64,000 nt of DNA from Spongiibacter tropicus DSM 19543 (GTDB taxonomy: Bacteria; Pseudomonadota; Gammaproteobacteria; Pseudomonadales; Spongiibacteraceae): positions 1,492,463 to 1,556,462 of the forward strand of contig NZ_ATUS01000001.1 in the NCBI RefSeq assembly GCF_000420325.1, in the 5' to 3' direction. The stretch's first letter is position 1; the number at the start of each line of letters is the position of its first letter. This document shows positions 1 to 5,013 of this stretch, one piece after another. The position numbers were made by a program, and so were the translations under genes. The notes beneath the pieces were generated by a model, which saw nothing but the letters and a program-made list of their open reading frames with translations, did not search any database and had not been told where the DNA came from.

Positions 1-548
1 CCCTGCGCCACCGCTACAATCTCGCGGTGGTTACCAACGACATTTACACCCGCGAAGATGCCGAATTCTTGACCCGCCACGAAGCCCTCTCGGCCGACCG
101 CATTATCGGCGTGGAGACCGGCGGCTGTCCGCACACCGCCATTCGCGAGGATGCCTCCATGAATCTCGCCGCGGTCGATGAACTCTGCCAGCGTCACCCC
201 GGCCTGGAGCTGGTACTGGTAGAAAGTGGCGGCGACAACCTCAGTGCCACCTTCAGCCCGGAGCTGTCGGACCTGACCCTCTATGTGATTGACGTGTCGG
301 CCGGAGACAAAATTCCCCGCAAAGGCGGCCCCGGCATCACCCGCTCTGATCTGCTGATTATCAATAAAACCGATCTCGCCCCTCTGGTCGGCGCCTCGCT
401 TGAGGTGATGGACCGCGACGCCAAAAAAATGCGCGGCGAGCGCCCGTTTGTATTCAGCAATCTGAAAGCCGGAGACGGCCTGCAGGCCATTATCGACTTC
501 ATAGAAACCGAAGGCATGCTCCGGCCCGCCAACAGTCAGCAAGCCTGA
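1..548 (+). CDS. ureG: Urease accessory GTPase UreG, 3' part
   Basis: This is the C-terminal part of a SIMIBI-class GTPase that loads nickel into urease in the cytoplasm together with UreE/F/D/H. The reading frame is open from base 3; the N-terminus with the P-loop lies before the window. Visible UreG hallmarks are the [13 protein letters not shown] stretch, the metal-site motif [15 protein letters not shown] (conserved Cys-Pro-His), the [15 protein letters not shown] segment and the guanine-specificity motif NKTDLAP. The last residues are a short tail typical of the family. The gene presumably ends a urease operon, and a small membrane peptide gene follows 26 bases later on the same strand. 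Identity is very secure; only the start is missing. Confidence 0.95.
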
Positions 549-574: not shown

Positions 575-769
575 ATGAACAAAATATTGACGACATCACT
601 GCTGATGCTGGGCAGTTCAGCGGCTCTGGCCCATCCCGGCCACGGCAACTGGGCCAGCTTCGGTCACGACTACGAACACCTGATCTGGCTGCTGGCGGCC
701 ATCGGCTCCAGCGCGCTGATTGTGCGCCTGCTGCTCAGCCGCAAAGGCAAAGACTCAGACGCTGGCTAA
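575..769 (+). CDS. Small histidine-rich membrane peptide after ureG
   Basis: A 64-aa protein preceded by a good ribosome binding site (AGGGAG). It has a signal-like hydrophobic segment (residues 1-19) ending in ALA, a His/Gly-rich patch beginning HPGHG and running to DYEHL (about 20-36), a second membrane helix (about 37-54) and a basic/acidic tail. The mature N-terminus resembles that of HupE/UreJ nickel or cobalt permeases, which also start with His-Pro-Gly-His after the signal, but the rest of such a permease is absent. A metal-related role beside urease is inference. Its last 15 bases overlap the 3' end of the convergent response regulator gene. It could be a remnant or a genuine short protein. 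Confidence 0.65.
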   Translation: MNKILTTSLLMLGSSAALAHPGHGNWASFGHDYEHLIWLLAAIGSSALIVRLLLSRKGKDSDAG

Positions 770-1660
770 GACCTTCAGCGCGGCGGCGGCCGCCGCCGTG
801 CGATTCTCCACCCCGAGCTTGGGGAAGACGGTTTCGAGGTGCTTGTTGACGGTGCGCGGACTCATTTCCAGAATCTCGCCGATCTCGCGATTGGTCTTGC
901 CCTGTGCAATCCAGTACAGCACCTCCGACTCCCGCTGAGTGAGCGGCAGGCGATCGCGAAGGGTCGCCGCATCGGGGCGCTCGGCCGGATCGGCCAATCG
1001 AAAAATACATTCGACGTCATCGCTGTTACTCAGCAGATAAGCATCCAGCGGTTTGGGCAAGGACTCCAGCTTATAGCGCTGCCCGCGAACCGGGGCATGA
1101 GACAACCAACGCACCAGCGGCGTAAAAATCAGCTGTGCCTGCTCATCGATTGACAGGCCGCTGAGCTGCAACAGCGCCTGCGCCTCGCGGGTCGCCCATT
1201 GCAGCACTCCGGACTTGTCCAGCGTAATCAGATACTGGCCGGTGCGATCCAACGCCTGCTGAACGCTCATCGCCCGTCGGGCATTGCCCAGATGCACACG
1301 CAGTCGGGCCACCAGCTCGTCGGGGTCAACAGGTTTGCTGAGGTAATCCACGCCCCCCGCCTGCAAGCCGCGTACAACATCTTCGGTATCACTCAGCCCC
1401 GTCATGAAGATCACCGGAATATCCGCCAGCGCCGTGTTCGCTTTTAAACGTCGGCAGGTCTCAAAACCGTCCATGTTCGGCATGACGGCATCGAGCAAAA
1501 TAATATCCGGCTGTACCTTCTCTGCGATGGTCAGCGCCTGTTGTCCGTCCAATGCCAGCAGCACACTGATCCCGGCGGCATCCAGCGTTTCATTGATAAA
1601 GCCGAGGGTGTCGGGAGAGTCGTCGACGACCAGCGCAACCTCGTTAAGCATCCGGCTCAT
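755..1660 (-). CDS. LuxR-type response regulator with receiver and PAS-like middle
   Basis: A 301-aa DNA-binding response regulator. Residues 6-122 are a receiver domain with acidic pocket Asp13-Asp14, phospho-acceptor Asp57 in the LLDAVMP motif and the conserved Lys in LSKPVD. Residues 125-215 look like a degenerate PAS-type region (GQYLITLDKSGVLQWAT). Residues 235-300 form a LuxR/NarL helix-turn-helix (LTQRESEVLYWIAQGKTNREI). The start codon overlaps the stop of the upstream sensor kinase gene as ATGA, so the two are translationally coupled and almost certainly cognate. The gene converges on the urease end and could control urease or purine/urea-derived nitrogen use; that target is inferred from position only. 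Confidence 0.9.
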   Translation of the reverse strand: MSRMLNEVALVVDDSPDTLGFINETLDAAGISVLLALDGQQALTIAEKVQPDIILLDAVMPNMDGFETCRRLKANTALADIPVIFMTGLSDTEDVVRGLQAGGVDYLSKPVDPDELVARLRVHLGNARRAMSVQQALDRTGQYLITLDKSGVLQWATREAQALLQLSGLSIDEQAQLIFTPLVRWLSHAPVRGQRYKLESLPKPLDAYLLSNSDDVECIFRLADPAERPDAATLRDRLPLTQRESEVLYWIAQGKTNREIGEILEMSPRTVNKHLETVFPKLGVENRTAAAAAALKVLASV

Positions 1661-4600
1661 AAGCTGTGTTCTTCCAAAACGTGAATCACCTTCGCAAACT
1701 GAATCTGTGCCGCCAGTTCCCTTACCGTAACCGCGAGAGCGGGCGGGATCTGACCTAGGCGCTCCATTTCATCCAGTGCATCCGCCAGACCACGTGCGTA
1801 GCCGATCTCCGCGAGGTGGATCAAGCGACCGGCAATGGCCGCATCAATATTGAGCTCTGCGGGATCGGGCGCCGCCACCGGCGCGGCGGTCGGCAGAATC
1901 ACCGAAGACTGTCGCCACTCGATCCCCATCAGCTCTGCCAGCGTTTCCAGCAAGGTCTGTAGCTTAACGGGCTTTAGCAGATACGCATTGTAAAGCAGGT
2001 TGGGGTCGGGCCGGTTGGGCGGCTCTTCCGCATTGGCGGACAACATCAGCAGCGGCTGCGTAAAACCGGTCGAACGCAGGGCGGCGGCCAACTCGTGTCC
2101 ATCCTTGCCGGGCATGCTGACATCCAGCATAAACAAATCCGGCGCGCGATCTGCGGCTTGCTGGAGACAATGCTCTGCGTCTCTGGCCTCAACCACGTTA
2201 AAGCCCAAGGGCACCAGCATGTCGGCCATCAGGCCGCGATGCACCGGATCATCATCCACGACCATGACGGTTTTTCTGGCGCCCTCGTAACCCGTGATCA
2301 CCGGCGGTTCTTCCACTTCCGCCTGATTGACAACGGACGACAGCATCAGCGTCAGGGTGAAACGACTGCCCTCGCCCTCCAGACTCTCGACCCGGATATC
2401 GCCCCCCATGATCTCCGTGAGCAGGCGCACAATGGTCAAGCCCAGCCCGGTACCTGCCACCAGTGGCGAGCCCAGTTTTCTGACCCGCTCAAAGGGTTTG
2501 AAGATCGTGGCGAGGTCATCCGCGGCAATGCCGCAACCACTGTCGAGAACCGTAAATTCCGCTACCTGCGCGCGATAGCGCACGCGAAATTCGACCTGTC
2601 CCTGATCGGTGAACTTCACCGCGTTGGACAGCAGGTTCGTCAGCACCTGCCGCAAGCGCTTCTCATCGGCCCGCACAATTTTCGGCAGGGCCGACTCCGC
2701 CGTAAAGAGAAACTCGACCCCTTTGGCCTGTGCCTCAGGCGCAAAAATCTGCTGCATCTGCTGCAGTAATTCGTGGAAGTCCACCATGTCACGGCGCAAC
2801 TCAATGCGCCCCGCTTCAATACGCGAAATATCCAGCAGGCCCTCGATCAGATCGGCCAGGTGCTCGCCGCTGCGATGGATTATTGCCAGAGAATTTCGCT
2901 GCCGCTCATCCAGCTCCTGATCGCGCCGCAATAGCTGGGTATACCCCAGAATGGATTGCAACGGCGTGCGCAGCTCATGACTGATACCACTCAGGTAGCG
3001 ACTCTTGGCGTAGTTGGCCGCCTCGGCGGCCTCCTTGGCACGCTGTAACTCCTGATCGGTGCGATAGTGGGCGTCAATCTCCTCCTGCAGGCGCTGCGTT
3101 TGCCGGTCGGACTCCTGCTGCGCAACCAGTCGACTTTCGTTGGCCAGCAGAAACAGCCAAATCAGCACCCCGGTAACGATGGTAAGAATGAAGTACAGAC
3201 TGGTCAGCGTATCGGCAATAACCTGGGGTTTGTCACTGTCGATGGCCATTTCAAAATAGATCACCCACAGCAAGCCCGCATTGATCGCACTGATCAGCAG
3301 AAACAGGCTAACGAAACGACCAATACGCGAAAACAGGGCGTCGAGAAGACTCGCGGAGAACCATTTCCGCAGTAGCTGCCGAGCCTGCTGGGAAAAGCGC
3401 GCATCGGTTTTGCAGCTATCCATGCAGCGTGCATCCAGCGAGCAGCACAGCGAACAAATGGTGCCGTTGTACGCGCTGCAATGAGCAACGTCTTCACGCT
3501 CGAACTCGGATTCGCAAATCACACACTGATGCACTTCAACCGCCGGCAATTGCGGCGAGGTTCTGGCCAGGTAGAAGCGCCCTCCGGTCCACCACGCCAG
3601 CAGCGGCGCGGCCAGCATACAGCAGCCTAGAGTAATGAAATGGGTCAGGGCCTTGGCCTCGGGACCGAACTGGCCGAGGTAGGCAAGCATCCCCGCCAAG
3701 GAGGCGATTAACATGGAGCCCACACCCACTGGATTGATGTCGTAGAGGTGAGCGCGTTTGAATTCGATGTGCGCGGGGCTTAGTCCCAGGCGCTTGTTAA
3801 TGGCCAGATCTGCCGCCAGCGTTCCCAGCCAGGCCACCGCCACGATGGCGAAGATGCCGAGTACATTCTCCAGTACGCGATAGATACCCAGCTCCATCAA
3901 CAGCAGCGCAATAACCACATTAAAGACCAGCCACACGACCCGGCCGGGGTGGCTATGGGTCAGACGGGAGAAGAAGTTCGACCAGGCAATCGAGCCGGCA
4001 TAGGCGTTGGTGATGTTAATCTTCATCTGCGAGATCAGCACCATCACGCCAGCAATCACCAAACCCAATTGCGGCATGTCGTGAAAGTAGCTGTAGACCC
4101 GCTGGTACATATGAGTGGGGTCCGCGGCCTCCGTCAGCGTCATGCCCTCACTGACGGCCAAATAGGCCAGAAACGAGCCCAGCAGCAACTTCACCAGCCC
4201 GATAAATACCCAGCCCGGCCCGGCGAACAGCACCGCCAGATTCCAGCGGCGGCGATTGGCCGCCGTGCGCTGGGGCAGAAAACGCAGGTAGTCCACCTGC
4301 TCGCCCAACTGCGCAATCATCGCGATCAATACCGAGGCCGCTGCACCAAAAACCAGCAGATCAAACTGCTCGGCCTGGGCGCGCCGCCCCCCGTATTCCA
4401 TCCAGCTGGGCAACTGCTCATAGTCGTGAACCGCAACGAGTACCAGAGCGGCGATCTGCAAGGCCAGCCACAGGTATTGGGTGCCGATCTGAAAACGGCT
4501 GATCAGCGTGAAACCGTGCGTCACAATGGGGATGACCGCCACCGAGCACAGTACATAACCGAGGGCCAGCGGCAAGCCAAACAGCAGCTCCAGCGCCATG

Positions 4601-5013
4601 GCAAGAATAGCGGCCTCAATGGCAAAGAAGATGAACGTAAACGAGGCATAGACCAGCGAGGTAATGGTGGACCCCAGATAGCCAAAACCGGCACCTCGGG
4701 TCAGCAGGTCGATGTCGACCCCGTAGTAGGCCGCATAGCGACAGATGGGCAGCCCCACCATAAACGTTACCGCCATCACCACAACCATCGCCACGGCGGC
4801 ATTGATGAAGCCGTATTCCAGGGTCACCGCCGCCCCGAGGGCTTCCAGCGCCAGAAAGGCCGTGGTGCCCAGCGCCGTCATCGCTACCCGCTCGATACTC
4901 CAGCGCCGCGCTTTTTTGGCGGTGAAGCGCAGTGCATAGTCTTCGAGGGTTTCGTTGACGACCCACTGGTTGTAGTGGCGCCGCACCGGAAAAATCTGTT
5001 GATTCACGGACAT
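1657..5013 (-). CDS. NCS1 permease-like / hybrid sensor histidine kinase fusion
   Basis: A 1118-aa inner-membrane protein. Residues 1-480 carry about twelve hydrophobic segments and read as a nucleobase:cation symporter (NCS1, purine-cytosine permease) module, including RGAGFGYLGS. Residues 497-534 hold eight cysteines (497, 500, 512, 520, 523, 524, 530, 534). Two further membrane helices (about 555-585 and 600-628) and a coiled coil lead into HisKA with phospho-acceptor His679 (SHELRTP), an HATPase domain (NLLSNAVKF; DSGCGIA; GTGLGL) and a receiver with Asp964. A C-terminal helical tail of about 80 residues is not a recognisable Hpt. The likely role is sensing an extracellular nitrogen compound through the permease module. 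The ligand, and whether transport occurs, are unknown. It is coupled to the LuxR-type regulator. Confidence 0.88.
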   Translation of the reverse strand: MSVNQQIFPVRRHYNQWVVNETLEDYALRFTAKKARRWSIERVAMTALGTTAFLALEALGAAVTLEYGFINAAVAMVVVMAVTFMVGLPICRYAAYYGVDIDLLTRGAGFGYLGSTITSLVYASFTFIFFAIEAAILAMALELLFGLPLALGYVLCSVAVIPIVTHGFTLISRFQIGTQYLWLALQIAALVLVAVHDYEQLPSWMEYGGRRAQAEQFDLLVFGAAASVLIAMIAQLGEQVDYLRFLPQRTAANRRRWNLAVLFAGPGWVFIGLVKLLLGSFLAYLAVSEGMTLTEAADPTHMYQRVYSYFHDMPQLGLVIAGVMVLISQMKINITNAYAGSIAWSNFFSRLTHSHPGRVVWLVFNVVIALLLMELGIYRVLENVLGIFAIVAVAWLGTLAADLAINKRLGLSPAHIEFKRAHLYDINPVGVGSMLIASLAGMLAYLGQFGPEAKALTHFITLGCCMLAAPLLAWWTGGRFYLARTSPQLPAVEVHQCVICESEFEREDVAHCSAYNGTICSLCCSLDARCMDSCKTDARFSQQARQLLRKWFSASLLDALFSRIGRFVSLFLLISAINAGLLWVIYFEMAIDSDKPQVIADTLTSLYFILTIVTGVLIWLFLLANESRLVAQQESDRQTQRLQEEIDAHYRTDQELQRAKEAAEAANYAKSRYLSGISHELRTPLQSILGYTQLLRRDQELDERQRNSLAIIHRSGEHLADLIEGLLDISRIEAGRIELRRDMVDFHELLQQMQQIFAPEAQAKGVEFLFTAESALPKIVRADEKRLRQVLTNLLSNAVKFTDQGQVEFRVRYRAQVAEFTVLDSGCGIAADDLATIFKPFERVRKLGSPLVAGTGLGLTIVRLLTEIMGGDIRVESLEGEGSRFTLTLMLSSVVNQAEVEEPPVITGYEGARKTVMVVDDDPVHRGLMADMLVPLGFNVVEARDAEHCLQQAADRAPDLFMLDVSMPGKDGHELAAALRSTGFTQPLLMLSANAEEPPNRPDPNLLYNAYLLKPVKLQTLLETLAELMGIEWRQSSVILPTAAPVAAPDPAELNIDAAIAGRLIHLAEIGYARGLADALDEMERLGQIPPALAVTVRELAAQIQFAKVIHVLEEHSL

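Follow-up and report, generated by a model that had tools for sequence, protein, structure and literature searches.

The 64,000-nucleotide stretch of Spongiibacter tropicus DSM 19543 analyzed here (contig NZ_ATUS01000001.1, positions 1,492,463 to 1,556,462; hereafter the window) carries near its left end a two-gene signaling system, which consists of a hybrid sensor histidine kinase with an NCS1-type N-terminal domain and a response regulator (Table 1). An earlier note on this DNA had described the same two open reading frames (ORFs), which we found where it had placed them, and had proposed that the kinase gene is coupled to that of a LuxR-type regulator. This proposal held: the ORFs share 4 bp (window 1657-1660), and Pfam recognizes a receiver and a GerE domain in the regulator. 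The urease cluster reported beside the pair is also real. The window opens within ureG, the last gene of a urtABCDE-ureDABCEFG cluster that begins ~11.5 kb to the left of the window. At this locus (L031), the gene order is outer-membrane protein?-urtABCDE-ureDABCEFG, where the identities of UrtA, UrtB, and UreC are backed by NCBIfam and the other names were recognized from sequence and order; the first gene, a possible outer-membrane protein, has no Pfam match.

The signaling parts of both proteins are readily assigned. Residues H679, N793, D824, G826, and G828 of the kinase are kept in all 147 aligned rows (the window protein plus 146 loci, among which L031 is the window again), and the receiver residue D964 is present in 145, the other two being gaps. 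Thus, with its phosphoacceptor histidine, ATP-binding residues, and receiver aspartate all kept, the protein is a hybrid sensor histidine kinase. These and all later row counts exclude 6 of the 152 loci collected, four because of short frames (L062, L075, L096, and L134) and two because the kinase is swapped (L210 and L211). The regulator is of the NarL/FixJ type, having a receiver (residues 10-120) and a GerE helix-turn-helix (HTH) domain (residues 239-292) by Pfam. In its AlphaFold2 model (mean pLDDT 88.1), the order of strands and helices makes the middle domain appear PAS-like. A Pseudomonas version of the regulator (L126:13419-14051, 211 amino acids [aa]) has the receiver and GerE domains only, without the PAS-like middle domain.

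Table 1. Features of the gene pair and its immediate surroundings (window coordinates; rows are those of the alignment of 147 kinases)
Feature	Position	Strand	Size or basis
Hybrid sensor histidine kinase with NCS1-type N-terminal domain	1657-5013	-	1118 aa
NCS1-like membrane domain, kinase residues ~20-490	3544-4956	-	hhalign profile comparison
Lys331 codon, aligned with Mhp1 Ser312	4021-4023	-	Lys in 147/147 rows
Eight-cysteine module, kinase residues 497-534	3412-3525	-	between NCS1-like domain and kinase
HisKA dimerization/phosphoacceptor domain, kinase residues 669-735 (H679)	2809-3009	-	Pfam 7.7e-20
HATPase_c domain, kinase residues 783-891	2341-2667	-	Pfam 1.3e-26
Kinase receiver domain, residues 916-1025 (D964)	1939-2268	-	Pfam 3.3e-17
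Response regulator: receiver, PAS-like middle domain, GerE/LuxR-type HTH	755-1660	-	301 aa
Regulator middle domain, residues 144-223	992-1231	-	PAS-like strand/helix order, predicted secondary structure only
ureG 3' part, last gene of the urtABCDE-ureDABCEFG cluster	3-548	+	
64-aa ORF between ureG and regulator, convergent with regulator	575-769	+	sequence reading

The N-terminal membrane domain is more elusive. Pfam reports nothing in kinase residues 1-540, a sodium:solute symporter (SLC5) match being likewise absent, and searches with the domain alone or its profile against Pfam, NCBIfam, and PDB sequences returned nothing usable; therefore, a bridging transporter and profile comparison were needed. 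The bridge, a free-standing transporter encoded at L064:7949-9442, is 25% identical to the domain of the kinase (122 of 484 aligned positions) and passes PF02133, the Pfam model of NCS1, with 36.4 bits against a cut-off of 23.5. When the profile of the kinase domain was compared by hhalign with that of 16 PF02133 proteins taken from other genomes, the two aligned over 422 columns, covering residues 20-467 (probability 98.75, E 1.5e-16), and a profile headed by Mhp1 aligned over 379 columns (probability 99.3, E 1.8e-20). The controls UrtB and UrtC gave probabilities of 0.2 and 0.5, respectively. By these profile-profile alignments, the N-terminal domain is homologous to NCS1 transporters over the whole transporter length. 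Thus, the fusion of an NCS1-permease-like domain to a kinase and receiver, as earlier proposed, stands, although the domain is invisible to Pfam, and the concern that the region might match no transporter family is answered by the NCS1 and Mhp1 profiles. The window's own genome encodes no PF02133 protein, hence no ordinary NCS1 transporter by that model. The bridging protein is the closest non-kinase relative found, and its gene adjoins those of a CN_hydrolase protein and a UrtA-like protein.

We compared the domain with Mhp1, a transporter of this class whose Na+ site includes Ser312 and Thr313 and whose ligand is flanked by the aromatic residues Trp117 and Trp220; these residue letters were verified in the alignment. 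The Ser312 position is occupied by Lys331 in every row and the Thr313 position by Ile332 in 146 of 147. None of the 16 NCS1 proteins is basic at the lysine position, and many of them also have no Ser/Thr at the Na+-site positions; the bridging transporter has Arg there. The Trp117 position, aromatic in all 16 NCS1 proteins, is Phe in 140 rows and Leu in 7, and the Trp220 position, aromatic in 11 of the 16, is Leu in 138 rows and Met in 9. Glu stands at the Gln121 position and Asn at the Asn318 position in 147 of 147 rows, and E133, N333, N336, and K331 are each equally invariant. Set beside Mhp1 and CodB (PDB 2jln and 7qoa), the domain aligns with the Mhp1 profile over nearly its whole length and keeps the asparagine pair N333/N336; it differs from Mhp1 in the replacement of Ser312 by Lys, of Gln121 by Glu, and of Trp220 by Leu or Met, and in the fused kinase.

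Judged by this alignment, the kinase domain lacks both the Na+-site hydroxyls and the aromatic pair of Mhp1, and its invariant Na+-site lysine and lost pocket aromatic set it apart from ordinary nucleobase permeases. Loss of the Na+ site speaks against transport coupled to Na+, and the lysine points to a Na+-independent domain that may bind its ligand but not carry it. We read the pocket as suited to a small non-aromatic carboxamide, with Na+ no longer needed. A comparison of the urea and amide groups for residues that might set ligand specificity yielded no more than mild signals. At position 231, which corresponds to Gly219 of Mhp1, 59 of 92 rows from loci beside amide genes have Ser, and 38 of 39 from loci beside urea genes have another residue; columns within the kinase score nearly as high, so this position was not relied on.

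Between the membrane domain and the kinase lies a module with eight cysteines (497, 500, 512, 520, 523, 524, 530, and 534), all of which are present in 147 of 147 rows. When 249 genomes were searched with the module by itself, 36 matches turned up in 32 of them; all the matching frames are 894-1247 aa long, and every genome with a match also holds these kinases. Thus, in the genomes scanned, the module occurs only in this kinase family. In the PDB, its only counterparts were halves of CxxC zinc fingers and a weakly matching stretch of CRIPT.

The N-terminal domain is present in 33 of the 145 genomes of the order (in G039 as an 89-residue fragment only), which shows that the fusion is not a chance event. 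In a sample of the phylum, 54 of 398 genomes match (G303 and G362 weakly or partially), and among named genomes at least 598 stretches match, with relatives encoded by at least 593; the 80 best of these at least 598 stretches were retained and include Marinobacter, Alcanivorax, Pseudomonas, Bradyrhizobium, Methylobacterium, and Achromobacter. The 152 loci comprise 33 from the order, these 80, and 39 from the phylum sample; 11 places from the latter are not among them (one is a 57-residue piece), nor is L213, the fortieth region taken from that sample, which is a distant match at 24%. Because the sets overlap (L048 and L088 are apparently the same genome), their counts are not independent.

Urea or amide genes adjoin the kinase at 135 of the 152 loci, 40 being of the urea type (UrtA-type transporter and/or urease) and 95 of the amide type (UrtA-like binding protein, FmdA formamidase, and/or AmiE amidase). 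The two marker sets never occur together, although L194, labeled urea, combines urease with amide-type transporter genes. All 39 loci from the phylum sample have such neighbors. Regions shifted by 100-200 kb in genomes of the same set contained the markers in 0 of 20 cases, and chance neighborhood is thereby ruled out; the marker rule of this control differed slightly and scores 28 of the 33 loci from the order and 67 of the 80 named ones as positive. This survey also bears out the earlier expectation that homologs would be consistently linked to nitrogen genes. Nine of the 17 loci with neither label lie on contigs under 12 kb; among the other eight, UrtA is encoded elsewhere in the genomes of L032, L034, L045, L066, L069, and L072 (for L032 and L034, the distance to the kinase is ~19-20 kb) but not in that of L035. 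The identities of FmdA and AmiE are supported by NCBIfam equivalog models. Because the UrtA model accepts the binding proteins of both locus types, urea may also be a substrate of the amide-type importer. In a quick tree built without bootstraps from 147 kinase domains plus an outgroup, the urea and amide labels require four changes (labeled rows only), and G351, G372, and G503 each have one kinase copy beside urease and another beside FmdA. At L211 (6151-10847), the NCS1 and cysteine domains are joined to a different kinase without a receiver, accompanied by a receiver-kinase of its own and a regulator of the OmpR type, and FmdA is still nearby.

Inspection of the DNA that precedes the first transport gene revealed a palindrome, TACGTCA-NN-TGACGTA (7-2-7); a repeat of this layout resembles NarL sites. 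Its degenerate form, TRCGTYANNTRACGYA, occurs perfectly in 52 of 118 upstream regions (119 less that of L092, which was empty and was dropped), with up to one mismatch in 70 and with up to two in 83, compared to 0, 0.08%, and 1.53%, respectively, of 1180 shuffles. The sequence TGCGTTAAATAACGCA was taken as the predicted binding target of the regulator. Because the pattern was drawn from these same sequences, genomes with and without the kinase were compared. Within 3 kb upstream of urtA, a site with up to one mismatch was found in 10 of the 16 genomes that have a kinase of the urea type, in 0 of 13 with the amide type only, and in 0 of 30 with no kinase match (Fisher 1.3e-7), a contrast among 59 order genomes with UrtA that are relatives and not independent, in which several of the 16 had helped to find the motif, one stretch had only 645 bases, and the types were assigned by us from neighborhood and tree. 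A strict form, TRCGTCANNTGACGTA, is present in 18 of the 33 genomes with the kinase, compared to 4 of the 112 without a kinase match (Fisher 1.1e-10); the reversed control pattern is present in 3 of 145. Genomes with the kinase contain 19 strict sites, all but one of them no more than 13.5 kb from the kinase; the exception, in G126, is on another contig, 5' of a UrtA-like gene. The window's 3.95-Mb genome has one perfect match to the degenerate form (C1:1480983-1480998), which precedes by 90 bp the probable start codon (ATG) of the gene heading the genome's own urt-ure cluster. These comparisons suggest that the palindrome is probably the site of the partner regulator, placed before urea or amide uptake genes. 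The Bradyrhizobium relatives have an operator variant, TACGC-N6-GCGTA. Residue 272 of the regulator HTH was considered as a correlate of the two operator forms (Asn in 67 of 69 and Asp in 15 of 21); this weak difference follows clades. A sigma-54 scan of the upstream regions, which scored 42 of 119 at up to one mismatch without a control, was dropped.

Taken together, the NCS1-type fusion, the conserved catalytic residues, the coupled genes, the conserved neighborhood, and an operator linked to the presence of the kinase lead us to propose, with a probability of roughly three in four, an NCS1-derived receptor kinase for urea or short-chain amides that acts with its coupled regulator and the palindrome to switch on uptake and hydrolysis. 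The sensor would be a re-purposed NCS1 transporter that may have lost transport, its old substrate pocket now binding urea or a short-chain amide, for example formamide or acetamide. A conformational change there would be relayed to the HisKA/HATPase kinase by the eight-cysteine module and the segment after it, and the phosphoryl group would then reach the receiver-PAS-GerE regulator, either directly or via the hybrid receiver. The regulator would bind TACGTCA-NN-TGACGTA before urt(-ure) or, in relatives, before the amide-uptake/formamidase operon, and we infer that it activates, rather than represses, uptake and hydrolysis when urea or the amide is present. In the window's genome, the cluster adjoining the kinase (outer-membrane protein?-urtABCDE-ureDABCEFG) is the putative target; across the family, fmdCABDEF and urtABCDE-ure operons are the probable targets.

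A number of observations weigh against this proposal. PF02133 gives no match at E up to 10 to the whole kinase or to residues 1-540, and Pfam finds in the pair no histidine phosphotransfer (Hpt) domain for a relay via the hybrid receiver. The pocket is nearly alike in the urea and amide groups and so does not fix the exact ligand. Because the degenerate motif was set after the window site had been seen, neither its 52 perfect matches in 118 regions nor its uniqueness in the window's genome is blind; at up to one mismatch that genome has 2 sites, compared to 3 for the reversed control pattern, and its site fails the strict form. Sites are also missing where they might be expected: at up to one mismatch upstream of urtA in 6 of 16 urea-type genomes, in the strict form in 15 of 33 kinase genomes, and at up to two mismatches at the urease-only loci L206, L208, L209, and L212. 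Conversely, the four genomes with strict sites and no kinase match are G087, where the site (L374) lies between urtE- and ureD-like genes and no kinase was found, and G016, G079, and G119, where the sites are not beside urea genes (ORFs judged by eye). Finally, G044 (L035) keeps kinase and regulator and has neither UrtA nor UreC.

NCS1 transporters carry nucleobases, hydantoin, and allantoin, and urea is an end product of purine catabolism. The domain might therefore sense one of these compounds, with urease merely downstream of purine breakdown, and the profile match to the hydantoin transporter Mhp1 fits such a role. We regard this as very improbable, given that 95 of 152 loci adjoin amide genes (purine genes were not counted in the survey), that the Trp220 position is Leu or Met in every row, whereas it is aromatic in most of the NCS1 proteins compared, and that the window's genome has no PF02133 protein. 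The earlier note had offered a purine, pyrimidine, allantoin, or urea-related source as the ligand; the urea-related part survives, and the others are disfavored by the urea/amide neighbors and the replaced tryptophan. A response to ammonium or general nitrogen state, instead of to urea or amides, also appears improbable. Its best case is G044, where two perfect degenerate sites occur (L035/L347/L348), one before a transglutaminase-like protein and one 141 bp upstream of a P-II-like gene that is followed by an amtB-like gene (amtB by eye), and ammonia represses fmd in M. methylotrophus according to an excerpt of PMC10781810. However, G044 is a single genome whose count at up to one mismatch, 7, is below the 13 of the reversed control, the usual neighbors are substrate-specific operons, and paralogs within one genome are split between urease and FmdA.

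A less remote alternative, which we nevertheless consider unlikely, is a true transceptor that imports urea or amide as well as signaling, as has been reported for CbrA and histidine. The SLC5 domain of CbrA mediates histidine uptake (excerpt of PMC13022988), the whole NCS1 length is kept in our family, and the free-standing relative L064, beside a CN_hydrolase protein, probably transports; as it has Arg at the Na+-site position, transport may be compatible with a basic residue there. Against this stand the Lys that replaces the Na+-site Ser in all rows, the UrtA-type ATP-binding cassette importers alongside the kinase at most loci, and the behavior of a comparable fusion, Ks-Amt5, which binds ammonium but does not translocate it (excerpt of PMC5764959).

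Transporter-kinase fusions are known as a kind; the NCS1 class, the cysteine module, the operator, and the urea/amide link appear to be new. In the SLC5/STAC kinases CbrA, CrbS, and RpuS, a whole transporter domain is likewise fused to a histidine kinase, and CrbS and RpuS are likewise hybrids with receivers and LuxR-family regulators (excerpts of PMC9100948, PMC5715377, and PMC13022988). Regulation by CrbR, the partner of an SLC5-type kinase, depends on an inverted repeat (excerpt of PMC5715377), which was present in 91 of 112 promoters examined in that work (excerpts of PMC9100948, PMC5715377, and PMC13022988). Those kinases have SLC5, a STAC linker, and acetate, histidine, or pyruvate, whereas the window family has NCS1, the eight-cysteine module, and urea/amide genes; Pfam scans of the kinase gave no match to a STAC linker, the presence of a STAC model in the library being unchecked. 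Ks-Amt5 is likewise an uptake transporter turned kinase sensor for a nitrogen compound (excerpt of PMC5764959), but it has the Amt fold and no receiver and comes from an anammox bacterium, whereas the NCS1 family is widespread in Proteobacteria. Among the matches listed from the open-licence literature, subscription papers not being covered, there was no account of an NCS1-kinase fusion. In Ectopseudomonas guguanensis, a hybrid kinase and LuxR-family regulator lie beside urtABCDE, with an fmdA number nearby (excerpt of PMC13296017), and in Pseudomonas veronii an amiE-fmdA-fmdB-urtABCDE arrangement without amiC/amiR led to a proposal of formamide uptake (excerpt of PMC13209695); the excerpts of these two accounts name neither NCS1 domain, ligand, nor site. 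For the fmd operon itself, the excerpts name only a putative regulator.

If our proposal is correct, the system supplies a candidate sensor, regulator, operator, and target operon for the detection of urea and small amides by environmental Proteobacteria, with high-affinity uptake and urease as the output, and NCS1 joins SLC5 and Amt among the transporter classes turned into kinase sensors. In many soil and marine bacteria, the family probably serves to report the presence of urea or small amides. A broader scenario, for which we judge the odds to be even, is that an NCS1 transporter, having lost its Na+ site to an invariant lysine and acquired the eight-cysteine module for coupling, gave rise to a widely distributed family of dedicated sensors of the carboxamide group that urea, formamide, and acetamide have in common. 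Four or more switches between amide and urea operons would have left the pocket, and for the most part the operator, unchanged; the family would then be the missing inducer-sensor of urt-urease and fmd genes. Lys331, Glu133, Asn336, and the palindrome are point predictions open to testing, and the urease/formamidase paralogs within one genome, together with the swapped kinase, offer natural experiments on the change from transporter to receptor.

The small ORF between ureG and the regulator gene overlaps the latter by 15 bp at their 3' ends. The start of its predicted product resembles a signal peptide, and a His-rich segment is present.

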